NCBI GenBank assembly: GCA_030038395.1
Contig: JASHOZ010000051.1
Coordinates: forward strand, 1 to 55,709
Length of the DNA stretch: 55,709 nt
DNA from: Nitrososphaerales archaeon
Lineage (GTDB): Archaea; Thermoproteota; Nitrososphaeria; Nitrososphaerales; Gagatemarchaeaceae
Direction: 5' to 3'
Notes under the pieces: model-generated
The model's database searches: none
What the model was told of the DNA's origin: nothing
Seen by the model: the letters and a program-made list of their open reading frames with translations, nothing else
Shown: piece by piece, positions 22,374-55,709 of the stretch
Position numbering within the stretch: the stretch's first letter is position 1
Layout of the letters: every line of letters begins with the position of its first letter
Translations under genes and position numbers: made by a program

Positions 22374-22793
22374 CTATGAGTTGGGGGAACTCTGCGCCGC
22401 CCTGAGCCTCTTTACGAGTTCCTTCAGCATTCCGACTGCGAGCTCTGGATGCACCTTCAACAGGGAGGCGAAAGACCATGAGGTGATTGCCCAGCATCGG
22501 GTGGGTCGTACGGCCACGACGTCGGCAGACCTTGGCATGTCGTCTATCAACGACATCTCGCCAAAGAACTGGCCTTTCGATAGCGTCGCGACCGCTTTTC
22601 CACTCTTGCGGACTTCAGCCGAGCCGTCGAGGACGAGAAAGAAACCTACCCCGGAAGCGCCCTCGCTGACGATCGTGTCGCCCTCCTTGAACGCCATCTC
22701 CTTCCCCTGAGCGAGAAGCGCCTTCGTCGTCTTCGAGTCTAGGCCTCTAAAGAATGGGACGGAACTGAGCAGTGAACCGGTATCGGAAGACAT
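22374..22793 (-). CDS. Single-domain cyclic-nucleotide-binding protein
   Basis: A 139-residue CRP-type cNMP-binding domain without a DNA-binding domain. Beta-barrel strands are present (FKEGDTIVSEGASGVGFFLVLDGSAEV). The phosphate-binding cassette is GQFFGEMSLIDDMPRSADVVA, with the Glu and the Arg-Ser-Ala that hold the ribose and phosphate in CRP and PKA. A C-terminal helix (ELAVGMLKELVKRLRAA) ends the protein, so output must pass through a partner. TATA-like GTTTAAAT at 22824-22831 (minus) puts initiation within about 7 nt of the ATG. The isomerase gene follows 38 nt downstream. A paralogue lies at 47999 beside an adenylate cyclase. Confidence 0.9.
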   Translation of the reverse strand: MSSDTGSLLSSVPFFRGLDSKTTKALLAQGKEMAFKEGDTIVSEGASGVGFFLVLDGSAEVRKSGKAVATLSKGQFFGEMSLIDDMPRSADVVAVRPTRCWAITSWSFASLLKVHPELAVGMLKELVKRLRAAQSSPNS

Positions 22794-40812: not shown

Positions 40813-41640
40813 CTACTCGGGCCTGAGGGCGCGCCGCGCCGCGAGATACCCCAGCATCCCGAGGAGCGAGGCGAATACAGTCAGATAAGCCACGTCCCAG
40901 CCGTAGGTTGCGAGCTGGCTTGAGGAGAGCGACCCGTTCACTATCAAGAGTCTTGCCGCGTCGTTCGCTTTGGTGACCGGATTGACGTTTGCGATGTCCA
41001 TGAGCCACGACGGGAAGGAAGACGCCGGGAAGAACGTGTTGCTCATGAACATGATCGGCAGCGTCAGGAAGTTGACGATCGCTACGAGTGAGTCGATGCT
41101 CCTGACCGTGAGGGCGAGCGCGGTGAAGATGAAAGACAACCCCAGGCCTAATAGCACGAAGGCGAGGAATACGCCCAAAAAGCTGATGATAGAGAACGAC
41201 CCTGGAAGCTTCAGACCGTTCGGGATGAAAAGGGCGACCACGAACGTCAGCACGGCGAGGATGAGCACCTTCACCAGGTTCTGAGCGACTCCCGAGAGGA
41301 ATATGGCCGCGCGTGGTATCGGGGCGGTGAGTAGGGAATTCAGGTAGCCGAGCTGCCTGTCGAGGACCAGGTCTATTCCCCCGAAGGCCATGTTGAAGAC
41401 CAGTATGACGCAGATGACCCCTGAAGTGAGGTAGGTGATGTAGGTCGGCGCACCGCCGAATGACGTCGGCAGAGAAGTGGAGGCGCCTGTGGACTGGGAC
41501 AGGAGGGCTGTAGGATTGAAGGAGTTCCCGAAGAGGAACAGATAGAACATCGCAGTGAACAGTCCGGGCATCACCGATGCGGGGTTGCGCACCCACTTCT
41601 TCAGGGCCCTGAAGGTGAGCGCTAGCGTCTCGCTGATCAT
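40813..41640 (-). CDS. ABC-2-type exporter permease (DrrB-like)
   Basis: A 275-residue permease with six hydrophobic segments of the ABC-2 family. It has the DrrB-like start (LTFRALKKWVRNPASVMPGLFTAMFYLFLFG), FGGIDLVLDRQLGYLNSLLTAPIPRAAI, and MFMSNTFFPASSFPSWLMDIANVNPVT before the last helix. It starts 2 nt after the ATPase stop. The pair would export a hydrophobic compound, lipid or polysaccharide. The first hydrophobic stretch has an unusually long Ser/Thr loop. Substrate unknown. Confidence 0.88.
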   Translation of the reverse strand: MISETLALTFRALKKWVRNPASVMPGLFTAMFYLFLFGNSFNPTALLSQSTGASTSLPTSFGGAPTYITYLTSGVICVILVFNMAFGGIDLVLDRQLGYLNSLLTAPIPRAAIFLSGVAQNLVKVLILAVLTFVVALFIPNGLKLPGSFSIISFLGVFLAFVLLGLGLSFIFTALALTVRSIDSLVAIVNFLTLPIMFMSNTFFPASSFPSWLMDIANVNPVTKANDAARLLIVNGSLSSSQLATYGWDVAYLTVFASLLGMLGYLAARRALRPE

Positions 41641-41642
41641 GC

Positions 41643-42641
41643 CTATCTGGTTCGCTCCATCCTGATGTTCTCCCAGGCCGAGTCGCTCTCGGGCGCCTCT
41701 TCATCGCGCATGGACCTCCCGACGACGTCGAGGAAGACTTGGTCCAGGGTGGGCTTGGAGAAGGAGATCTCGGAGATCCCCACTCCCTTCTGCACGACGC
41801 CCGCCACTATGGCGGGGAGCGCCCTCTCGGTCTTGGGGAGCTTTATCCTGTAGGTGTTCCCCTCTCTCGTCACGCCTTGGACGCCTTCGATTCCCGAGAA
41901 GAAGGGTGTCAGGTCGGCTGTCTCGTTCGAGAGGGTTAGCGTGACGATGTCGCCGCCGTGCGCCTCCTTGAGCTCGGATGGAGACCCAGACACCCTTATT
42001 GCCCCATGGTCCACGATTGCGATTCTGTCGCAAAGCGAGTCTGCCTCGTCTAGGTAGTGCGTGGTCATGAAGACGGTGAGTCCCCGGTCCTTGTTCAGTG
42101 CCTTGATGTAGTGCCACATCCTGCTGCGGGTCTGCACGTCCAGGCCGAGAGTTGGTTCATCCAAGAAGAGCACCTTCGGCTCGTGCAGGAGCCCCATGAC
42201 CAGTTGAAGTCTCCGCCGCATGCCGCCCGAGAAAGTCTTCACCTTCCTCCCTGCGGCCTCCTCCAGGTCGACGAGGCGGAGGAGGTTCGCTATCCGTGTC
42301 TTCGCGGTAGTCCCGTTCACCTGATGCAGCTTCGCCATCAGCATCATGTTCTCGGTCCCACTCAGCTCGTCGTCTGCGGTCAGCTCCTGCGGGACCACGC
42401 CGATGCTCTTCCGTACCGCGCCGGGATCCTTCTTGACGTCGTGGCCTGCGACCGTCGCCGTCCCATCGGTGATCGAGGCCAGTGTGTTAAGCATCTTAAT
42501 GGTGGTCGTCTTGCCAGCACCGTTCGGGCCCAGGAAGCCGAAGATTTCGCCCTCGGTCACGTGGAAGGTGATGTGATCGACGGCCTTGACCTTTCCTCCA
42601 TAGACCTTGGTCAGGTCCTTCGCGTCGATGATGGCCGACAC
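41643..42641 (-). CDS. ABC exporter ATPase (DrrA-like)
   Basis: 332 residues from GTG 42641. Walker A is GPNGAGKTTTIKM, the Q-loop VVPQE, the signature TFSGGMRRRLQL, Walker B VLFLDEPTLGLD and the H-loop TTHYLDEADSLCD, followed by the DrrA-type C-terminal regulatory domain. GACTTATG at 42667-42674 (minus) is 29 nt upstream and supports GTG 42641 over TTG 42659. It powers the permease encoded 2 nt downstream. Confidence 0.93.
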   Translation of the reverse strand: MSAIIDAKDLTKVYGGKVKAVDHITFHVTEGEIFGFLGPNGAGKTTTIKMLNTLASITDGTATVAGHDVKKDPGAVRKSIGVVPQELTADDELSGTENMMLMAKLHQVNGTTAKTRIANLLRLVDLEEAAGRKVKTFSGGMRRRLQLVMGLLHEPKVLFLDEPTLGLDVQTRSRMWHYIKALNKDRGLTVFMTTHYLDEADSLCDRIAIVDHGAIRVSGSPSELKEAHGGDIVTLTLSNETADLTPFFSGIEGVQGVTREGNTYRIKLPKTERALPAIVAGVVQKGVGISEISFSKPTLDQVFLDVVGRSMRDEEAPESDSAWENIRMERTR

Positions 42642-42666
42642 TCGTGTGACCTTACGCAAGGACCCT

Positions 42667-42674
42667 CATAAGTC
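42667..42674 (-). promoter_or_regulatory. TATA box for the ABC exporter operon
   Basis: GACTTATG on the minus strand, centred 29 nt from GTG 42641. Confidence 0.45.
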
Positions 42675-42755
42675 GTCGGCCCGCGGTCGCTGACAGCTTG
42701 CTGACCCAATCTTTACATCGGCTTCACTCTGGTCCGCTGGCAGGGGTTCTTCCCG

Positions 42756-43199
42756 ATGTCCGAAACCGTCATGAAAATAGTCAGGTTCTACGTGAACCGA
42801 CACTCAATCCTGTACGCGTCGACGGGAGCGGTAAACACGTTGATGATTGACGGCTTACTTTACCTTCTTAGGTTTCGCCTGTACCTCCCCTTGCCCATTG
42901 CCCTTCTCATGGCCGTCCTGACATCGATTCTGACCGACTACACGTGGAAAGCCGAAGTTGTCTTCCGTTCCCCGCTACTGTCACGCGAGCGCTTCTTCAA
43001 GTACTTCCTCAACGGCTCGGCTGCTACAGCCATACAGTACGTGCTGACGTTGCTTTTCTCGATCGTGATCTTCCCTACGATTGCCTACATCTTCGCTGTA
43101 GCGATCGGATTCCTCTTCGCTTACACCATTTCGCGACTGAAGATATGGAGACAATATGCTCCGGGGCAGCCCGCTATGGGTTCAGCGACGACTCGCTAG
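42756..43199 (+). CDS. GtrA-like membrane protein
   Basis: A 147-residue GtrA-family protein with four hydrophobic helices: FYVNRHSILYASTGAVNTLMIDGLLYLL, IALLMAVLTSILTDYTWKAEVVF, FFKYFLNGSAATAIQYVLTLL and IFAVAIGFLFAYTISRLKIW. GtrA proteins are thought to flip polyprenyl-linked sugars for cell-surface glycosylation. The neighbouring glycosyltransferase and the sequon-rich surface protein fit that role. TCTTTACAT near 42710-42718 is the likely promoter. Confidence 0.85.
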   Translation: MSETVMKIVRFYVNRHSILYASTGAVNTLMIDGLLYLLRFRLYLPLPIALLMAVLTSILTDYTWKAEVVFRSPLLSRERFFKYFLNGSAATAIQYVLTLLFSIVIFPTIAYIFAVAIGFLFAYTISRLKIWRQYAPGQPAMGSATTR

Positions 43200-43316
43200 C
43201 GGGCTTCCGTCAGTGAGTTCGAGGCTTCCTGACCGCCTACGACGGTTCTGCGCGCCTCGGTAGCGGTAGCGCACTGCTCACTTCTCGCGCGAACCGAGTT
43301 GGCGACTCGGCTAGGC

Positions 43317-44822
43317 TCAGTTCGGGCTCTCGGGCACTTGACTCGGTGGGCTCGGCGCCGCACCCTGCAGGTGCCGGCTCAGGTTCATCGACTTTAGGGT
43401 GAAGATGCCGAACCCGAAGAGCGACAGGGAGAGGAACCACACGCCATAGGCGAAGACAATCACGGCAAGCGCGATGCCGGCGACTGCCAGCGCACCCTCG
43501 ATGATCGCGTTTTTGTCGTTCGTCAGGCTCCGGAAGTAGGACTTCTTCGTCGCCTCTCCTGAGCCTCCGTGCGGAGTCCTGTACTTGAAGAACCCTGTCC
43601 TGTTGAACACGCCGTAGAAGAAAGCCACCGAACCAAGACTCAGCATGGCTCCGGTGGCGTAGCCGATCATGGGAATCAGGATGACGTTCCTCGCCGTCAT
43701 CAGCCCTTGCACCCAGAGGGCCCACGCCCCCGATGCAAGGGATATGGCGAATGGGACGGCGACCATCGCGACGTAGAACGGGTTGTTGAATATGGAGTTG
43801 GCAGGCTGGACAACGCCACCGATTACCGCGAAGGCGGAAAGAAACGTTACCAGTATCCAGCTGAATCCGGAGAAGGGGCCGAGGAGCATAAGCAGGAGGC
43901 CCGCCTTCGTCTTGAGATTCACGTCCGGGGCCTTCACGATGCTCTTCCAGTACTTGGCGATGCATCGCCACCACCCCTGCGACGTCCTAGCGACCTGTTT
44001 CTTCCAGGCTTCCAGCGTGGAGGGGTCTTCGCTCATTATCTTGACGCTGCTCAGATAGATTCCGCGTTTGCCGGCCAGGTACATCTTGATCGACACGTCG
44101 CCGTCGTCGGCGATGCGTTCGTTGGACCACTGGCCGACCCCCCTCAGGTCCTTAGACCTGACAAGTGCGAAGCCCCCTTGGAACGAGAATGGAGCGTCGA
44201 TTCGGTACGCCCCCATCTTCGACAGCGTGTCTCCCATGTCCTGGTAAAGCGCGAAGAGACGAGTGATGAGGTTGTAGTTCCTGTTGTAGTGTCCGTATCT
44301 GAACGAGACGAACGAAGCGCGCGGATGGCTCTCCATCGCGTCTATCCCCTTCGTGAGCAGGTCAGGAGGGACTATCGAGTCGGCGTCCAGTAGAAGGACG
44401 AACTCCCCCGTCACCTGGTCCATCGCCTTGTTTAGCGCTCCGCACTTGAAGTAGTCCCTGTTGGGACGCCTGGACACGACTGCCCTGACGCCACTGTCGT
44501 TGAGCTCGCGCACCTTGTCGTCGATTACCTGGACGGTCTGGTCGTTGGAGTCGTCTGCCACCACAATCTGCAGCCTTTCCTTTGGATAGTCCAAGTGCTT
44601 CAGAGCGTCGAGGGAACGGGCGATCACATACTTCTCGTTGAACGACGCTACCAACACGGAGACCGTCGGGTGACTAGATAGCTTGACGTCCTTGCCCTCG
44701 AGGTCTCTGGGATATTTTGTCGACATCCCAAGCAGGACGAGCCAGTAGTACTCCAGCCCAAGGACAGGGACTGTGATGACTAGTGTGATGACCTCTACTA
44801 GGAACCAGGGCTGGATTGCCAT
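43317..44822 (-). CDS. Membrane glycosyltransferase family 2
   Basis: A 501-residue processive-type GT2. A helix at the N-terminus (FLVEVITLVITVPVLGLEYYWL) precedes the GT-A domain: VSVLVASFNEKYVIARSL, IVVADDSNDQT, LLLDADSIV (DxD), FSFQGGFALVRS and ERIADDGDVSIKM, with a QVARTSQGWW motif like the QxxRW of synthases. Five or so C-terminal helices follow. The start ATG 44822 lies 1 nt after the MMPL stop. It probably makes an envelope glycan or glycolipid moved by the MMPL partner. Confidence 0.88.
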   Translation of the reverse strand: MAIQPWFLVEVITLVITVPVLGLEYYWLVLLGMSTKYPRDLEGKDVKLSSHPTVSVLVASFNEKYVIARSLDALKHLDYPKERLQIVVADDSNDQTVQVIDDKVRELNDSGVRAVVSRRPNRDYFKCGALNKAMDQVTGEFVLLLDADSIVPPDLLTKGIDAMESHPRASFVSFRYGHYNRNYNLITRLFALYQDMGDTLSKMGAYRIDAPFSFQGGFALVRSKDLRGVGQWSNERIADDGDVSIKMYLAGKRGIYLSSVKIMSEDPSTLEAWKKQVARTSQGWWRCIAKYWKSIVKAPDVNLKTKAGLLLMLLGPFSGFSWILVTFLSAFAVIGGVVQPANSIFNNPFYVAMVAVPFAISLASGAWALWVQGLMTARNVILIPMIGYATGAMLSLGSVAFFYGVFNRTGFFKYRTPHGGSGEATKKSYFRSLTNDKNAIIEGALAVAGIALAVIVFAYGVWFLSLSLFGFGIFTLKSMNLSRHLQGAAPSPPSQVPESPN

Positions 44823-44823
44823 G

Positions 44824-47469
44824 CTACTCGCTAGACCCTTCCCTTGGCGGCTGGGTCTGCCCCTCCTTATTTGAGTGAACCGGCGCGGCGGGATGGTCGC
44901 TTCCAACCCGCGGGTCTGCCCTGACCTTGCCCGGCCACCAGTTGTAGCTCTTGGCGATTCCCATGAGGGAAGGGACGAAGAACAGTATAACTATTCCGAC
45001 ATCCACGAGGACCGCCGAGGCCACGCTGACGCCGATCTCCTGAAAGAGACCGATTCCGCTCACCACCAGCGACGCGAACACGCTTGAGAGTATCAGTCCG
45101 AGCCCGAACAGCGTGACCCAGGTCTTGCCGACGGCGGTCCGAATCGCGTCGAAGTCAGACCGACCGTTCAAGGCTTCTTCCCTTATCCTGGTTACTAGAA
45201 AAATGTCGTAGTCTATCCCCACCCCCAGCATCGTGACGATCACGAAGAGCGGCGCCAACCCGACTATCGGAATCCCCAGAGCGTAGTAGAACGAGAGAGA
45301 AAGCAGGGCGAGGGCGAATGCTACGCTGCAAAGGATGGTGAAGATCAGGCGAAGAGGGGTGAAGATTGAACGCAGCTGCAAAAAGAGGATGAAGTAGACG
45401 CCCACTGCCAGTATCAGCAGAACTGTCGGCAGTACCCCGTTGATCAGGTTGAGGGTGTCGATCGTCGACTGGGTGGTCCCACCGTAAAGCACGGTGACGC
45501 CAGCAGGTAGAGCCAGGGCTCCCACCGCGCTCTCCACTCCGTCCAGTTCCGCAATCGCCTGCGGGCTCTGGGCGGGTGCCGAAAGACCTACTGTGATGAG
45601 GGCGGTTCTGTTGTTCAAGCCGATTTGCGAGTCAATCGCAGTTAGATACTGCTCGGCGACGGGTGACGGTAGCGTGCTCAGGTAGCTATAGTTGAACTCA
45701 GAGCCGTAGGGGCTGGTCGGACTGCTGACCGACTCCACGCCATCCGAGCCCGCGATTGCCGATGTGATTCTGTCGAGCGTGCCTAGTTGCGACTGATTGA
45801 AGCCGCCCCCTCCGTCAGTAATCGGCGAAGGGAAGGTCACTGCTATCTGGGTAGGCGCCACAGTGCCCCCTCCGAAATTGTTGTCGATGACGGTCAGGCC
45901 TTGGTTGCTCTCGAAGTTGGGGATGAGCCTGGTGATGTCAAAACCGCTCGGAGTCTCGTAGGTCAGGTAGAAAGCGCCGGCAGCTAGGAGGGTGATCGCC
46001 ACAGATATCACGACCTTCTTGCTGAGTGTGCGCTGGGTGAGCCTGTCAATCCTGGCGGTCTTGTCAGGCTTCACTTTCGGATGGAGATGAGCGGCGTCCC
46101 TCGGCCAGAACAGCCTGTCTCCGAACATGAGTTCGAGCGAAGGGAGGAGCGTCATTGAGGCGGCAAGAAGAATGGCGACCCCCAATGCAATGGCGGTCCC
46201 GACAGCGCCGAAGAACGGCACCTTCGTAACCGCCAAGACGATGTACGCGACAATCACGGTCGATCCGGCCGTCAGCACCGCCTGTCCGGCCCATCTCACG
46301 GAGACCGCCACGCTCTCATCGATGGACTTTCCTCCCGCTCTCCCCTCCTTCGTTCTTCTCAGTTGCAGCACTGAGTAGTCGACGGCGAGGCCGAGCATCG
46401 TCAGTATCATGAGGAAGGGGACGGCGAAGTTAATCTGCCCGTGCTGCACGACCACGATCAGGCCGTAGACACCCCCGAGTGAGATTCCGATGGCCAACCC
46501 GCCAATCAGGACCGGAACCAACGCTGCAACGGGAGAGAGGAACAACAGCCCCGCGACCAATATCGACAGAGCCAAGCCGGGGACTATGCTGTTGTCGAGG
46601 GCGGGCTGCGCGGCGTTCTCGAAGTCCGCCGTTATTACGGGCGAGCCCGTAACGTATACTGTGCCAAGCCCGGCGAGACTCGACGCATGCACGTCTGTCT
46701 TCGTCTCCGCTATCACTCCGTTGCTGGGAGGCGATGAGAAGTCGACCTCGAATATCATGGTGGTGTTCTGTGGACTCACGAAGTCCCTTGTCGTTATGGC
46801 GGAGAGCGCGTAGGGATAGTCGAGTATGCTTTCGGAGGCCAGCACGCCTGAGACTGCCGCCTGTATCTCCCCCGTCGTGCTGTTGGCATTCAGCCCTGCG
46901 AGTAGGCCGTACAGCGACGTGGCGTTCACCGTGAAGAGGGGCGAAGACGCGAAGGTCGATGCGGCCCTATCGGCCAAGGCCATGGCGGCTGTGTCCCACG
47001 CCGCACCCGCGTCGCTGGAGTTCGAGGCAGGTCCGATGCCTCCGGCAAGCTGGCCCACATAGCCAGGGACGGTCGAGTCAAGCAGGCTCGCCTCCACGCC
47101 GTAAACACTCTCCACCCCACTGAAGTTTGCAAGCTGCGGGTCCGCGGCCAGCGTCCTGTTGAGCGAAAGGATGCCCTCCTTTACGCCGGTCGAGTACACG
47201 TTTCCGTCTTGGAAGACTACTATGACGGGGCTTGACGTCGTGTTCATCGCGGGGAACTGAGCGTCGATCACCGCCTGCGCTCTCTCGGACTCGGAATTTG
47301 GCACGCTCAGCGCGTTCGAGTTTGCGACGTTGAATGAGATTGCGGAGAAGAAGCCGAGGATTAGCGGCGTCGATATCACCAGAGCAACTAGCCACGCGAC
47401 GACGATGGCGCGGTGACGCTTCTTGATGAAGGCGCTAAGCTTCCCAAATGGTGAGTGTTCTGCCGCCAA
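44824..47469 (-). CDS. MMPL/RND-superfamily transporter
   Basis: An 881-residue protein with the duplicated RND layout: helix 1, a large outside loop rich in NST-type sequons, five to six helices, then the same again. The paired GLAVDYSVLQLRR and GVGIDYDIFLVTRIREE are the Asp-Tyr motifs of MMPL and RND pumps; FPFLLI-like helices surround them. MMPL proteins export lipids or glycolipids. It sits directly upstream of the GT2 gene (1-nt gap), so the pair may build and export an envelope lipid. The start is TTG 47469. Confidence 0.9.
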   Translation of the reverse strand: MAAEHSPFGKLSAFIKKRHRAIVVAWLVALVISTPLILGFFSAISFNVANSNALSVPNSESERAQAVIDAQFPAMNTTSSPVIVVFQDGNVYSTGVKEGILSLNRTLAADPQLANFSGVESVYGVEASLLDSTVPGYVGQLAGGIGPASNSSDAGAAWDTAAMALADRAASTFASSPLFTVNATSLYGLLAGLNANSTTGEIQAAVSGVLASESILDYPYALSAITTRDFVSPQNTTMIFEVDFSSPPSNGVIAETKTDVHASSLAGLGTVYVTGSPVITADFENAAQPALDNSIVPGLALSILVAGLLFLSPVAALVPVLIGGLAIGISLGGVYGLIVVVQHGQINFAVPFLMILTMLGLAVDYSVLQLRRTKEGRAGGKSIDESVAVSVRWAGQAVLTAGSTVIVAYIVLAVTKVPFFGAVGTAIALGVAILLAASMTLLPSLELMFGDRLFWPRDAAHLHPKVKPDKTARIDRLTQRTLSKKVVISVAITLLAAGAFYLTYETPSGFDITRLIPNFESNQGLTVIDNNFGGGTVAPTQIAVTFPSPITDGGGGFNQSQLGTLDRITSAIAGSDGVESVSSPTSPYGSEFNYSYLSTLPSPVAEQYLTAIDSQIGLNNRTALITVGLSAPAQSPQAIAELDGVESAVGALALPAGVTVLYGGTTQSTIDTLNLINGVLPTVLLILAVGVYFILFLQLRSIFTPLRLIFTILCSVAFALALLSLSFYYALGIPIVGLAPLFVIVTMLGVGIDYDIFLVTRIREEALNGRSDFDAIRTAVGKTWVTLFGLGLILSSVFASLVVSGIGLFQEIGVSVASAVLVDVGIVILFFVPSLMGIAKSYNWWPGKVRADPRVGSDHPAAPVHSNKEGQTQPPREGSSE

Positions 47470-47998: not shown

Positions 47999-48472
47999 CT
48001 ACCTGCTCTGCTCGGCGGGGAGGTTCTGCAGTTCGCTCAGGGTCCAGCTCGCCTGCCTGAGCCTTGCCGCCAGAAGCTGGATCACCGCCAGGGCAACATC
48101 GGGGTTCCGCCTCAGGAATGCCCGCCAAGCGACTCCTTTGACCCTCAGGCATCTGGTCTGGTCGCCTGCCATGACATCGGCACTCCGCCCTGTAGGCTCG
48201 TCATTCAGGACGGCCATCTCGCCGAAGAACTGACCGACGCCTAGCCTGGCGATTATTTTCCTTCTTTTCACGACTTCGACTCCGCCGTCCAATATGATGT
48301 AGAGGTCGGCAAGCCAGGATCCGTCCTTGATTATCACGCTGCCCGACTGGAAGCTTTCTTCTGTCGTGTCCTTCAGCAGCGATTTCAGGTCTTCGTCTGT
48401 GAGCTCACTGAACATCGGCACCCTGCGCAGAAGTCCAACCGTCTCCTTGCGTCCGCTCTTGGACTCCCCCAA
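47999..48472 (-). CDS. Single-domain cyclic-nucleotide-binding protein (cyclase neighbour)
   Basis: A 157-residue CRP-type cNMP-binding domain. FSELTDEDLKSLLKDTTEE is the N-terminal helix bundle, the barrel contains DLYIILDGGVEVVKR, and the phosphate-binding cassette FFGEMAVLNDEPTGRSADV has the conserved Glu and Arg-Ser-Ala. A C-terminal helix (ALAVIQLLAARLRQASW) is the lid; no HTH or other output domain follows. It is divergent from a bactofilin-like protein and an adenylate cyclase gene 264 nt away. TATA-like CTTTTAGAAAG (48497-48507) lies about 29 nt from the ATG. Confidence 0.9.
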   Translation of the reverse strand: MGESKSGRKETVGLLRRVPMFSELTDEDLKSLLKDTTEESFQSGSVIIKDGSWLADLYIILDGGVEVVKRRKIIARLGVGQFFGEMAVLNDEPTGRSADVMAGDQTRCLRVKGVAWRAFLRRNPDVALAVIQLLAARLRQASWTLSELQNLPAEQSR

Positions 48473-48672
48473 GGTCGGGGCAAGAGCGATGGCTTCTTTC
48501 TAAAAGCTTTTGGAATTGACCCCTGCCCCAAACCATCTCGGCCCTTCCGAACGCCAGCGCAGAGAGGCAGACGTGGCGGGAACGGCAGTCTAGGCGCGCG
48601 AAGCTCTCGCTGACCTACCGCTTTGGAGCGCCGGTGCATCGCGTCCGGAAGGACTCTGGTGGACTGCGAGAG

Positions 48673-48698
48673 TCACTACGAGTGATTACTTGTAGTGA
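48673..48698 (+). promoter_or_regulatory. 26-bp near-perfect palindrome before the solenoid-cyclase operon
   Basis: TCACTAC (48673-48679) and GTAGTGA (48692-48698) are exact inverted repeats. Inside them AGT (81-83) pairs with ACT (88-90), so 11 of 13 base pairs match. It ends about 4 nt upstream of the TATA box of the solenoid gene, as expected for an operator read by a dimeric regulator. Confidence 0.6.
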
Positions 48699-48701
48699 GC
48701 C

Positions 48702-48709
48702 AACTATAT
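48702..48709 (+). promoter_or_regulatory. TATA box for the solenoid-cyclase operon
   Basis: AACTATAT centred about 29 nt upstream of ATG 48736; fixes that start. Confidence 0.6.
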
Positions 48710-48735
48710 TACCCGAGGAGTGCCTCCTGACCGTC

Positions 48736-49902
48736 ATGAGCGACACAAGGGTCGGCGCGAGGCAGACAGTGCGGCTCGGCTTGGTCGAAGGAGACCTGCT
48801 TGTGGAGGATCACGCCAGGATTCAGCCGCTTGAAGGCAACCTGGTGGTCGTGAAGGGAGAAGCGTCCTTCGAAGGAAGCGTGGAGATAGACTGCGACTTC
48901 GAGTGCTCGTCGCTGCGCTCCAGGGATGGGATGGTCCGGATAGACGGGGGCTTGACCGTCCATGATGACATAGACGTCGATGTCGCCCTCTACGTTAGGA
49001 AGACTGCCAGCGCCAATAGTATTGACGTAGGAGGGAAGCTCTCCGTTGGATCCTTGCGGGCCAAGAGCGTCGATGTAGGTGGCTCGCTGGACGCCCAAGG
49101 CGAACTGTCTGCAGAGGTGGTAGACGTTGGAGGCTCCGTAGAGGCCGCTGGAGCGCTAGTCGCCAAGAGCCTAGACGTGGGCGGAAGGGTTGCGGTTGGG
49201 GGGGGCGAGGTGTCTGAACTGGCTGACGTGGGCGGCACGTTTGCATCGAGCAAGCCGCTGAAGTTCGCCAAGATTGACGTGGGCGGGACAGTCGAACTGG
49301 AGGGCGGGGAAGGGAAGATCATCGACGTCGGTGGGAGGCTAGTCTCGAAGGGAGATTTGACTTGCGATGAAATCGAAGCGGGCGGAGTGATCGACGTCGA
49401 AGGAAACCTGTCAGGCGGAAGTGTCGAGGTCGGGGGGAGGGTCAGGGTGTCCGGGGACGTCGCTCTGGCCAGGGAGCTCGAGGTCGGAGGAGAGGCGGAG
49501 ATCTCTGGCGTCCTTTCGGCGACGGATGTCGAAGTGGGGGGTCGCCTGAGGACGGCCAAAGGACTCGTGAAGGGTCAGGCAAAGATAGGCGGGGCGGTGG
49601 ACGCACCCCATGGACTCAAGGCGGCAGACATCGAGCTGGGAAGACACTCGCGGTGCACAGGGACATTGGTGGGGGGGCGCGTCCGCCTTGGGAGGGGCTC
49701 GGAAGTCCAAGACGTCTACTGCTCGGAACTGGATGCGGGGGCTGGTGCGAGGATGGGCAAGGTCTTCGCAGAGCGCGCGATACTAGGTGACGGCTGCGAA
49801 CTCGAAGCGTTGCTCTTCACACATGAGCTAAAGCAGGGAGCCGAGGTCAGGTGCACGACCCCGCCTCAGAAGGCTTCTGCGCTCCCCCCGTTCCCGCTAT
49901 AA
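48736..49902 (+). CDS. Bactofilin-like beta-solenoid with 17-residue DVGG repeats
   Basis: 388 residues from ATG 48736, set by the TATA box. After a beta-rich start of about 95 residues come roughly 13 tandem repeats with consensus x-(V/I/L)-(D/E)-V-G-G and a period of 16-18, mostly 17, residues (first at residue 97, last near 300). This is the rung spacing of right-handed beta-helices such as bactofilins. No signal peptide or membrane helix is present, so it is cytosolic and may polymerise. The end carries DGCELEALLFTHELKQGAEV. The adenylate cyclase gene follows 33 nt downstream. Confidence 0.75.
   Translation: MSDTRVGARQTVRLGLVEGDLLVEDHARIQPLEGNLVVVKGEASFEGSVEIDCDFECSSLRSRDGMVRIDGGLTVHDDIDVDVALYVRKTASANSIDVGGKLSVGSLRAKSVDVGGSLDAQGELSAEVVDVGGSVEAAGALVAKSLDVGGRVAVGGGEVSELADVGGTFASSKPLKFAKIDVGGTVELEGGEGKIIDVGGRLVSKGDLTCDEIEAGGVIDVEGNLSGGSVEVGGRVRVSGDVALARELEVGGEAEISGVLSATDVEVGGRLRTAKGLVKGQAKIGGAVDAPHGLKAADIELGRHSRCTGTLVGGRVRLGRGSEVQDVYCSELDAGAGARMGKVFAERAILGDGCELEALLFTHELKQGAEVRCTTPPQKASALPPFPL
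49024..49700 (+). repeat. Tandem 48-54-bp coding repeats (DVGG rungs)
   Basis: About 13 repeats encode GACGTxGGxGG-type DVGG rungs at residue spacings 16, 17, 17, 17, 17, 16, 17, 17, 18, 17, 17 and 17. DNA copies are diverged, so the array is old rather than a recent expansion. Confidence 0.8.
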
Positions 49903-49935
49903 GTCGGTCGCGAAGGCGGGGAGAAGGGCGCAGAC

Positions 49936-50760
49936 ATGAGTAGGACGACAAAGAGGTCAAAAGCAGATATCTACGCATCAATCCTCGAGGTGGTCAGGCG
50001 CACGCCAGGAGGGAGGCGAATCACACGGATGTCGTATGGCGCAGGCGTGCCCCTCGACAGGCTTCGGGGGATGGTTGACGACCTCATTGCCTTCGGTCCG
50101 CTCAGAGAGGTGAGTGCGGAGGGAGAGACGACCTATGCCGCGACGCAGAGAGGGGGGGAATTTCTGGAGACCTACTGGAAAATGAACGGCTTCCTGGAGT
50201 CATTCGAGGCGACGACCACGAGAGAGTTGGCCGCAATTATGTTCGAAGACCTGGTGGGCTACACGGCGATCACACAACAGAACGAGCAGCGCGCGTTAGA
50301 GCTCCTGGAGGAATACCGGAAGGTCACGCGGACCTCGCTCCCGAAATACCATGGGAGAGAAGTCAAGACCGTAGGGGACGCATTCCTAGTCGAGTTCACC
50401 AGCGCGCTCGAAGCATCCCAATGCGCAATCGACATCCAGAGGCGGATGTACGAACGGAACAAGGGTGTCTCAGCGCCCGAAAGGCTCTTCGTCCGCATCG
50501 GAATCCACATAGGAGACGTAGAGAGGAAGGGGAACGACATCCTGGGTGACGCCGTGAACATCGGGAGCCGGGTATACGCCTTCGCCGAGCCAGGGGGGAT
50601 CTGCATCACAAGGCAGGTCTTCGATCAGATTTGGAACAAACTGGGGAACCACCTCACTGAAATCGGGAGACGCGAAGCCAAGAACGTCGCCACGCCTGTG
50701 GATGTGTTCTCGATAGATTTGCCGTGGGCGACAGGAGCCGCCGGGAGCATCGCCGCATGA
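49936..50760 (+). CDS. Winged-helix (HTH_45-like)-class III adenylate cyclase fusion
   Basis: A 274-residue protein. Residues 8-88 match the archaeal HTH_45 winged helix (SKADIYASILEVVRRTPGG, RITRMSYGAGVPLDRLRGMVDDLIAFG, TQRGGEFLETYWKM). Residues about 96-260 are a class III cyclase: metal Asp105 (MFEDLVGYT) and Asp148 (VKTVGDAF), ATP-specifying Lys144 and Asp201 (NDILGDAVN), and transition-state Asn208 and Arg212. All catalytic positions are present, so it should form an active dimer making cAMP. It is cotranscribed with the solenoid gene; the MFS gene overlaps its stop by ATGA. The DNA-binding half suggests direct gene control. Confidence 0.9.
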   Translation: MSRTTKRSKADIYASILEVVRRTPGGRRITRMSYGAGVPLDRLRGMVDDLIAFGPLREVSAEGETTYAATQRGGEFLETYWKMNGFLESFEATTTRELAAIMFEDLVGYTAITQQNEQRALELLEEYRKVTRTSLPKYHGREVKTVGDAFLVEFTSALEASQCAIDIQRRMYERNKGVSAPERLFVRIGIHIGDVERKGNDILGDAVNIGSRVYAFAEPGGICITRQVFDQIWNKLGNHLTEIGRREAKNVATPVDVFSIDLPWATGAAGSIAA

Positions 50761-51998
50761 CGCTGAGCGGGAGGCTCTGGCGCCACTCGGACTTCAGGAA
50801 ATTCTGGACTGGCGACACGATTACACAGTTCACCGGTCAGATATCGGGACTCGCGATTCCGACAATCGCGATCCTGACGCTTCGGGTCACAGGCTTCCAG
50901 CTCGGTCTCCTTCAAGCGCTGGGCTTCGTCGCCTTCCCGACGCTCGGACTCTTCGTCGGCGTCTGGATGGACAGGATGAAGAGGAAGCCCGTGATGATTG
51001 TTGCCAACCTCATCCAGGTGGCAACGCTAGCGAGCGTGCCGGTGGCGTTCGCGTTCGGCGTCCTCGGCCTCTACCAGCTCTACGCCGTGTCATTCTCGAT
51101 GGGGGCCACCACCGTCTTCTTCGATGTTGCCTACCAGTCTTACCTGCCTAGCCTTGTGTCGAAGGATGACGTGGTCGAGGGGAACCAAAAACTCCAGACC
51201 AGCGCGTCTGCGGCGCAGGTCGTAGGCCCGAGCGTTGCGAGCGTGATGATGCAGCTCGTGGGGGCCGCGCTCTCGGTTGCGGCGGACTCGGTGGGGACGC
51301 TCATCTCAGTGTTCACCCTCGCATGGATTGAGAAGCCTGAGCCTGCGGTTGCGCCGCCCGAAACAAAGAAGGACTTCTTCGCGGAGATGAGGGAAGGCAT
51401 CAAGGTGGTAACCGGAAACCCCCTGCTATGGACGCAGGCAGGGTGCACGGCGATGTCCAATCTAGGGTCCAATATGTTCGGCGTTGCGGTCTTGCTTTAC
51501 GCGTATCTCACTCTGGGGATATCGAAGGGCGTGATAGGCGTTGCCTTCTCGATTGGAGCCGTCGGCTTTCTGCTCGGCGTGCTGATCACGCCATCTTTCA
51601 CCCGCAGGGTCGGGCTGGGGCGCGCGATAGCTCTCTCGATCGCCGGAAACTTCGCGCTTCTGCTCGTGCTGCTCGCAAGGGGCGACCTAGCTGTCGTCAC
51701 AATCGGCGTAGCATACTTTCTTTCGTCCATCGGAGTTCCAATCTACAACATCAACCAGGTGAGCCTGAGGCAGATCATAACGCCGAATAGACTTCAGGGG
51801 AGAATGAACGCCACTATGAGGACCATAGTGTGGGGGACGATTCCCATAGGGTCGCTCCTTGGAGGGGTGTTTTGCACGACAATCGGAGTTGTTCCCACGC
51901 TCGTGGTGGGAGCACTCATAGCAGGTTGTTCCGTGGTCTGGATCGTCCTCGGGCCAATCGTTGGCCTTCAGCGGCAACCTCAGCCAGCCGTCGACTAG
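50757..51998 (+). CDS. MFS transporter (EntS/MFS_3-like)
   Basis: A 413-residue major-facilitator protein with about 12 helices. FRKFWTGDTITQFTGQISGLAIPTIAI, the loop-2 segment GVWMDRMKRKPVMI (MFS GxxxDRxxRR-type) and YLPSLVSKDDVVEGNQKLQTSASAAQVVGPSVA are typical of the enterobactin-exporter-like group. ATG 50757 overlaps the cyclase TGA, so it belongs to the same operon. The natural guess is export of a small molecule; there is no evidence that it moves cAMP. Confidence 0.88.
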   Translation: MTLSGRLWRHSDFRKFWTGDTITQFTGQISGLAIPTIAILTLRVTGFQLGLLQALGFVAFPTLGLFVGVWMDRMKRKPVMIVANLIQVATLASVPVAFAFGVLGLYQLYAVSFSMGATTVFFDVAYQSYLPSLVSKDDVVEGNQKLQTSASAAQVVGPSVASVMMQLVGAALSVAADSVGTLISVFTLAWIEKPEPAVAPPETKKDFFAEMREGIKVVTGNPLLWTQAGCTAMSNLGSNMFGVAVLLYAYLTLGISKGVIGVAFSIGAVGFLLGVLITPSFTRRVGLGRAIALSIAGNFALLLVLLARGDLAVVTIGVAYFLSSIGVPIYNINQVSLRQIITPNRLQGRMNATMRTIVWGTIPIGSLLGGVFCTTIGVVPTLVVGALIAGCSVVWIVLGPIVGLQRQPQPAVD

Positions 51999-55271: not shown

Positions 55272-55374
55272 CGCCGCCGAGCACATGCAGCCGCGTTGTG
55301 TTTGGGCCAAAGCAGTCAGGGACGGCTGCCGTGCATAGGATTCATTGCGCCTCCGCCGGGAATAACTCATCCTG

Positions 55375-55709
<335 letters not shown>

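Follow-up and report, generated by a model that had tools for sequence, protein, structure and literature searches.

A beta-solenoid/winged-helix gene pair with a conserved operator in Nitrososphaerales: a probable autoregulated exporter-control operon to which one lineage has added a class III cyclase

The stretch of DNA analysed here (the window, 55,709 bases) is one whole contig, C4, of a 1.49-Mb archaeal metagenome-assembled genome (MAG) from the order Nitrososphaerales, which is assembled in 69 contigs. In the window, a gene for a beta-solenoid protein is followed by genes for a protein with a winged helix and a class III cyclase domain and for a major facilitator superfamily (MFS) transporter, and a stand-alone domain that binds cyclic nucleoside monophosphates (cNMPs) is encoded divergently from them. 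A sequence-only reading of the same DNA had proposed these four open reading frames (ORFs), all of which were confirmed at the positions below, and had taken them for a cyclic AMP (cAMP) pathway in which the solenoid belongs to the output. The features of the locus are as follows.

47999-48472, minus strand: stand-alone cNMP-binding domain protein of 157 amino acids (aa), PF00027, divergent from the solenoid operon
48673..48698, plus strand: operator of two abutting 13-bp dyads, not mentioned in the sequence-only reading
48704-48711, plus strand: TATA box CTATATTA of the solenoid-cyclase operon, as read from the sequence
48736-49902, plus strand: beta-solenoid protein of 388 aa with a 17-residue period
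49936-50760, plus strand: protein of 274 aa with a winged helix (HTH_45, residues 6-84) and a class III adenylate cyclase domain (residues 97-232)
50757-51998, plus strand: MFS transporter, PF07690

Comparison with related genomes showed that the conserved unit at this locus is a pair of genes, one encoding the solenoid and the other a small Sso10a-like winged helix. Of 300 genomes drawn from the order, 27 carry the solenoid, at 30 places, and the 29 neighbourhoods other than that of the window (3.8-19.7 kb each) were compared. At 29 of the 30 loci, the next gene on the same strand encodes a winged helix homologous to residues 1-90 of the window cyclase, and the remaining locus (genome G088) runs off its contig end. 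The winged helix is free-standing in 24 of the 29 complete pairs, as ORFs of about 90-145 aa, and just two other winged-helix matches were found in 476 kb of DNA from the order. In all five genomes with a winged helix fused to a cyclase, the solenoid gene lies directly upstream, in agreement with the operon of solenoid and winged-helix cyclase described earlier. The solenoid profile also matched 15 of 300 genomes in a draw from the class and 44 of 300 in a draw from the phylum, the window's genome being counted in both. A winged helix lies within 600 nt of the solenoid in 25 of the 43 class and phylum loci compared (13 downstream, 3 upstream and 9 divergent); these loci leave out G381, G497, G570 and G620 (four of the 43 other genomes matched in the phylum draw) and the second matches in G489, G617 and G624. 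At loci L177, L178, L179 and L181, the solenoid is divided into two adjacent genes (about 200-245 aa) that precede the winged helix. At L157 and L159, the solenoid is flanked by an MFS gene on one side and, about 0.9-1.0 kb away on the other, by a gene joining the winged helix to a KaiC-like ATPase; these fused genes (L157:3026-4363 and L159:4388-5740), from another family (f57), represent a second, different winged-helix fusion.

The second conserved element is an operator. In the window, TCACTACGAGTGATTACTTGTAGTGA (48673-48698) lies between the cNMP gene and the solenoid, directly 5' of GCC-AA-CTATATTA, and consists of the abutting 13-bp dyads TCACTACGAGTGA and TTACTTGTAGTGA, with the consensus TCAC-N5-GTGA. 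An exact dyad was found within 160 nt upstream of the solenoid at 15 of the 26 order loci tested, a set without G042b, G066, G075 and G088, whose solenoids are all truncated at a contig end. By comparison, 300 shuffles of these upstream regions yielded on average 0.06 exact dyads and never more than 2, and no locus carried a dyad with a spacer of 0-4 or 6-12 in its upstream region. The same holds more widely: among the class and phylum loci, 16 of 43, from 10 families, have an exact dyad within 200 nt upstream of the solenoid and 32 of 43 have one with a single mismatch, against shuffle means of 0.08 and 2.25, respectively, a mean of 0.32 exact dyads in random slices of the same loci, and 0-2 exact dyads with other spacers. 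Of the 27 order genomes with a solenoid, 15 have the doubled dyad with its 13-bp step, at no more than two mismatches, in the promoter of the solenoid operon. Fused and unfused loci alike carry the operator. Its distance from the TATA box is similar across 17 aligned promoters, and the dyads end about 5-7 bp before the TATA box, over the presumed TFB recognition element (BRE). The gene pair, the operator and the placement of the operator are thus all conserved.

The position of the promoter also bears on the start of the solenoid gene, whose ORF opens at GTG 48634 and contains an internal ATG at 48736. The ATG is likely the true start, because homologues align from there and the TATA-like CTATATTA stands at 48704-48711; with the ATG about 25 nt downstream of the TATA box, the transcript of the solenoid operon would be leaderless.

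Genome-wide scans linked the operator to transporter genes as well. The 12-base pattern GTAATCAC-N5-GTGA (minus strand, 48673-48689) occurs exactly only once in the 1.49-Mb assembly, at the solenoid operon. Across the 27 solenoid genomes, 21 exact matches were obtained (2 with the reversed-pattern control), 13 at solenoid operons, among which is the G088 solenoid promoter, and 8 elsewhere. Four of these eight are no more than 90 nt from the start of an ATP-binding cassette (ABC) ATPase gene, in G130, G151, G072 and G064; the DrrA C-terminal domain is found in all of these ATPases except that of G151, which looks orthologous to that of G072. The longer tandem pattern with up to two mismatches gave 47 matches in the 27 genomes (control, 3), and the six without any mismatch are all at solenoid operons. 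In addition, several solenoid operons are headed by a transporter gene with the exact site before it, encoding an ABC transporter in G154, G136, G064 and G057 and an MFS transporter in G086 and G083. In G136, another exact 12-base site (L253:3382-3543) is followed after about 160 nt by a 501-codon ORF whose N-terminus is twin-arginine-like. The operator therefore stands upstream of some transporter genes of both the MFS and ABC types, and these transporters are presumably exporters.

The MFS protein of the window matched PF07690 at 93.6 bits (cut-off 33.4), and its ATG overlaps the cyclase stop codon as ATGA, as described earlier. Its best NCBIfam models, TIGR00900 and MefA, were both below their cut-offs; the protein is probably an exporter, judging from these profile matches. 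An MFS-superfamily gene follows the fused cyclase in two of the five genomes, the window's and G010, and no match between the two proteins was obtained at E 1e-4. In both G010 and G091, a gene at another place has the operator before it and encodes an MFS protein 38% identical to that of the window; the site has 1 mismatch in G010 and, against the tandem form, 2 in G091. An ABC ATPase and permease encoded elsewhere in the window share 68% and 69% identity with the transporter encoded first in the G154 solenoid operon.

The winged helix matched HTH_45 (PF14947) at 35.9 bits (cut-off 25.5) over residues 6-84 of the 274-aa protein, and stand-alone relatives scored 39.4 and 43.7 bits. Its profile covers residues 4-87 of Sso10a-2 (4hw0, E 3.9e-6) and also matches Sso10a (1r7j, E 3e-5), whereas its score against the NCBIfam Sso10a model NF053610 was 31.1 bits, below the cut-off of 60; the winged helices of L190 and L188 gave no match in the PDB. 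In an alignment of 26 winged helices, 4 of them fused (G091, G151, G066 and G088 are left out), R28, T30, S33, Y34, P39, D41 and R42 are invariant. Since this core is conserved and the fused loci keep the same operator, the fusion probably preserved the DNA specificity of the winged helix. What sets the protein apart from the Sso10a family, which it resembles by profile, is that it is partnered by a solenoid and, in one genus, joined to a cyclase.

The cyclase domain matched Guanylate_cyc (PF00211) at 59.1 bits (cut-off 21.9) over residues 97-232. The metal-binding Asp is in FEDLVGYT, the Lys and the second Asp are in VKTVGD, and the specificity Asp and transition-state Asn and Arg are in DILGDAVNIGSR, these positions being those that we take to be the catalytic and specificity ones. 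On this assignment, the domain has every catalytic residue, as the sequence-only reading held, and the residue motifs are present in all five fused cyclase domains. A Lys/Asp specificity pair predicts ATP as the substrate, and the fused domain is accordingly predicted to make cAMP. The catalytic domain and residues are those of known class III adenylate cyclases (archaeal Ma1120 is among the PDB matches), and the difference lies in the N-terminal winged helix; those linked to TPR repeats occur in the same genome, where three of the four other cyclases scanned carry such repeats.

Fusion to the cyclase was found in five genomes of one genus, namely that of the window, G148, G097, G010 and G091, and the fused protein has three close named relatives, all from Nitrososphaerales/Thaumarchaeota MAGs. 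Among 38 cyclase domains of these genomes, the fused ones form one clade (support 100/99). A single fusion event is the simplest reading, and the fusion probably arose once. In G091, a frameshift within the winged helix splits the fused gene (L108:8403-9249), perhaps through an assembly error.

For the solenoid protein, the 17-residue repeat reported earlier was borne out: the self-identity at lag 17 is 0.191, a value that 1000 shuffles, which reached at most 0.155 across lags 3-59, did not attain, and the AlphaFold2 model is all beta with a predicted local distance difference test (pLDDT) score of 96.5. A C-terminal LPxxPL tail is conserved among homologues; in the window (49863-49899), it belongs to a conserved proline-rich segment of the approximate form PPEKVxxLPxPPL, a candidate docking peptide. 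Membership of the bactofilin family (PF04519) was rejected for the window solenoid, which scored 20.3 bits against a cut-off of 27.9, and no match to this family at E<=0.001 was found in the window's genome; the G154 homologue scored 34.3 bits, above the cut-off. A weak PDB profile match to bactofilin A was obtained (E 0.026). Foldseek of the solenoid model against the PDB returned nothing at E<=0.001, the best being a curli subunit (E 0.21), and bactofilin 6rib was matched at E 5.5 with a template modelling (TM) score of 0.42 on the target. The sequence match to tail-fibre protein 9cuy (E 7.4e-12) was set aside as VGG-repeat similarity. The protein may share an all-beta solenoid with the bactofilins, beside which the archaeal halofilins (HalA) are named, but it is 388 aa long compared with the 98-position Pfam model, and its constant partner is a DNA-binding protein.

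The reading that we regard as probable is that 48673-51998 forms an autoregulated exporter-control operon based on a solenoid/winged-helix regulator, with the cyclase added in one lineage. The Sso10a-like winged helix would bind the tandem TCAC-N5-GTGA dyads that abut the BRE and TATA box of the operon encoding it and of transporter genes, and would most likely repress these genes by blocking TBP/TFB; repression is favoured because the dyads lie over the presumed BRE before the TATA box. The bactofilin-like solenoid would most likely serve as a scaffold for protein binding, retaining the winged-helix protein or letting it go. Because its conservation goes with the winged helix and not with the cyclase, a role as scaffold or titrating partner of the regulator is a real possibility, though one we put forward tentatively. 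In one genus, the winged helix would have been fused to a class III cyclase, a type of enzyme that is expanded in these genomes. The fused regulator could thus produce cAMP and so convert its own state, bound to DNA or to the solenoid, into a diffusible signal. It is more doubtful that this amounts to a phylum-wide system in which a solenoid polymer senses or titrates an Sso10a-like factor, the operator has been retained across Thermoproteota, fusions in separate lineages have joined this factor to a cyclase or a KaiC-like ATPase, and a promoter-bound cyclase in the genus of the window reports the state of the exporter regulon as cAMP.

Several observations weigh against the exporter-control reading. 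No exact dyad lies directly upstream of the solenoid at 11 of the 26 order loci, 4 of which have one before a transporter gene that heads the operon. Four of the eight 12-base sites away from solenoid operons precede no transporter, and no exact operator match was found upstream of the window's own ABC transporter (40813-42659). No winged helix lies within 600 nt of the solenoid at 18 of the 43 class and phylum loci, of which L169 and L182 hit a contig end. The counts are inflated by related genomes (the solenoids of G151 and G172 are identical). As regards the single fusion, the solenoid tree groups two fused loci with unfused ones, and a single solenoid clade of the five fused loci is unsupported by the tree, without being rejected (approximately unbiased test, p 0.254). 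The AlphaFold model of the fused protein, built from 4 sequences, was poor (pLDDT 46.7) and was not used. Another cyclase gene is found no more than 1 kb from a cNMP gene in G010, G052 and G133, and no more than 3 kb away in G075, G103 and G064. Finally, the operator is also found at solenoid loci with no winged helix within 600 nt (for example L157, L159, L160, L161 and L165), so another regulator could bind it, and the solenoid, the winged helix and the transporters would then be mere targets of that regulator. We consider this unlikely, since the divergent winged-helix/solenoid pairs L176, L186, L190 and L193 have the site in or at their common intergenic region, which is the usual layout of an autoregulator, and two of the pairless loci, L157 and L159, have the KaiC-like ATPase fusion nearby.

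Another explanation is that the Sso10a-like protein is architectural and that a solenoid filament tethers it, as a chromatin anchor, to the membrane or the poles. The similarity of the winged helix to Sso10a fits this explanation, as does the modelled fold of the solenoid; DNA bending has been described for Sso10a proteins, and DNA bridging for Sso10a1 (PMC4941522). Bactofilins are reported to tether ParABS in Myxococcus, and similar tethering has been speculated for the beta-helix protein SegB (PMC5703909 and PMC12284271, respectively). However, the operator is rare and located at promoters, with the one exact 12-base site in the window's genome, as would fit a dedicated regulator, and the similar spacing between operator and TATA box points to transcription. 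A chromatin anchor is therefore quite unlikely. Metallosphaera SegB, also from Thermoproteota, does resemble the present system in combining a DNA-binding domain with a predicted beta-helix (PMC12284271); it differs in that its ribbon-helix-helix, another DNA-binding fold, and its beta-helix repeats are in a single polypeptide, and in its role in chromosome segregation.

The sequence-only reading had the cyclase, the cNMP receptor and the solenoid act together in a cAMP pathway with the solenoid polymer as effector. The cNMP protein matched PF00027 at 59.1 bits (cut-off 27.5), and its phosphate-binding cassette, FGEMAVLNDEPTGRSA from residue 83, has the Glu and Arg-Ser in place (FGE...RSA), so the description of a stand-alone domain with an intact cassette was upheld. 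Both this domain and the cyclase look functional, solenoid and cyclase share an operon in every fused genome, and the window's genome contains 15 PF00211 matches (2 weak) and 3 cNMP-binding domains. Against this, the linkage of the three genes in relatives stood for solenoid and cyclase but not for the cNMP gene, which is present at only 1 of the 30 order solenoid loci, no relative of it being found in the other 29 stretches. A cyclase lies within about 1.5 kb at 2 of 32 cNMP loci scanned (30 of a larger number of matched places, plus L009 and L011), G083 and G086 have the pair without any PF00027 match, and most complete pairs of the order are without a cyclase fusion. The cNMP gene has its own TATA-like CTTTTAGA near 48500, the operator sits at the solenoid promoter, and the best match of the receptor, in G154 (61%), is on a contig other than that of the G154 solenoid. 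A conserved three- or four-gene locus that includes the cNMP receptor was accordingly rejected, and the window locus does not tie this receptor to the solenoid. Nor is the solenoid indicated as an output of cAMP, because its constant partner is the winged helix and not the cyclase. This pathway is the least likely of the explanations considered here. cAMP signalling may still exist in these cells: the proximity of cNMP genes to other cyclases suggests that these receptors and cyclases may well work together.

The closest of these possible cNMP-cyclase pairs, apart from the solenoid, are at G010:C1:959937-961363, G052:C21:9754-10697 and G133:C98:893-2711. The single-contig, 1.5-Mb genome of the relative G010 has 9 class III cyclase matches, and several cyclases in this genome and that of the window are cyclase-TPR proteins of about 570-660 aa. 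The third cNMP-binding domain of the window's genome is on contig C27.

Local repressors of efflux operons, of the MarR, TetR or PadR type, are likewise small regulators encoded beside transporters, with a dyad at the promoter. The present system differs from them in the Sso10a-like fold, the solenoid partner, the retention of the operator over the phylum, and the optional fusion of the winged helix to a cyclase or a KaiC-like ATPase. Our literature search, for which most subscription journals were outside the scope, gave no description of a solenoid paired with a winged helix under a phylum-wide operator and with a cyclase fusion; it returned no paper combining Sso10a with a cyclase or "polymer-forming cytoskeletal" with helix-turn-helix, and among the titles returned for bactofilin and Thaumarchaeota, none concerned the solenoid/winged-helix subject. 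The parts are all of known families, and the solenoid is an unusual partner for autoregulated exporter control; if the solenoid proves to be the sensor, this would be a new kind of regulatory system. The transcription factors of archaea, together with the sites and signals that belong to them, are poorly charted. The locus offers a regulator together with its likely operator, the transporters that it probably targets and its solenoid partner, all of which can be read from sequence across a phylum. The cyclase fusion provides a route into archaeal class III cAMP signalling; according to a 2021 paper, class III accounts for very few of the predicted cyclases of archaea (PMC8646023).

Further features of the window are listed below.

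22374-22793, minus strand: second stand-alone cNMP-binding domain protein, 139 aa, PF00027 at 69.5 bits
40813-41640, minus strand: ABC-2 permease
41643-42659, minus strand: DrrA-type ABC ATPase
55365-55709: end of an archaeal 23S rRNA (LSU_rRNA_archaea), at the contig end

The minus-strand region 40813-47469, near the solenoid operon, encodes the ABC-2 transporter pair, a family 2 glycosyltransferase and an MMPL transporter, all of them envelope or export genes.

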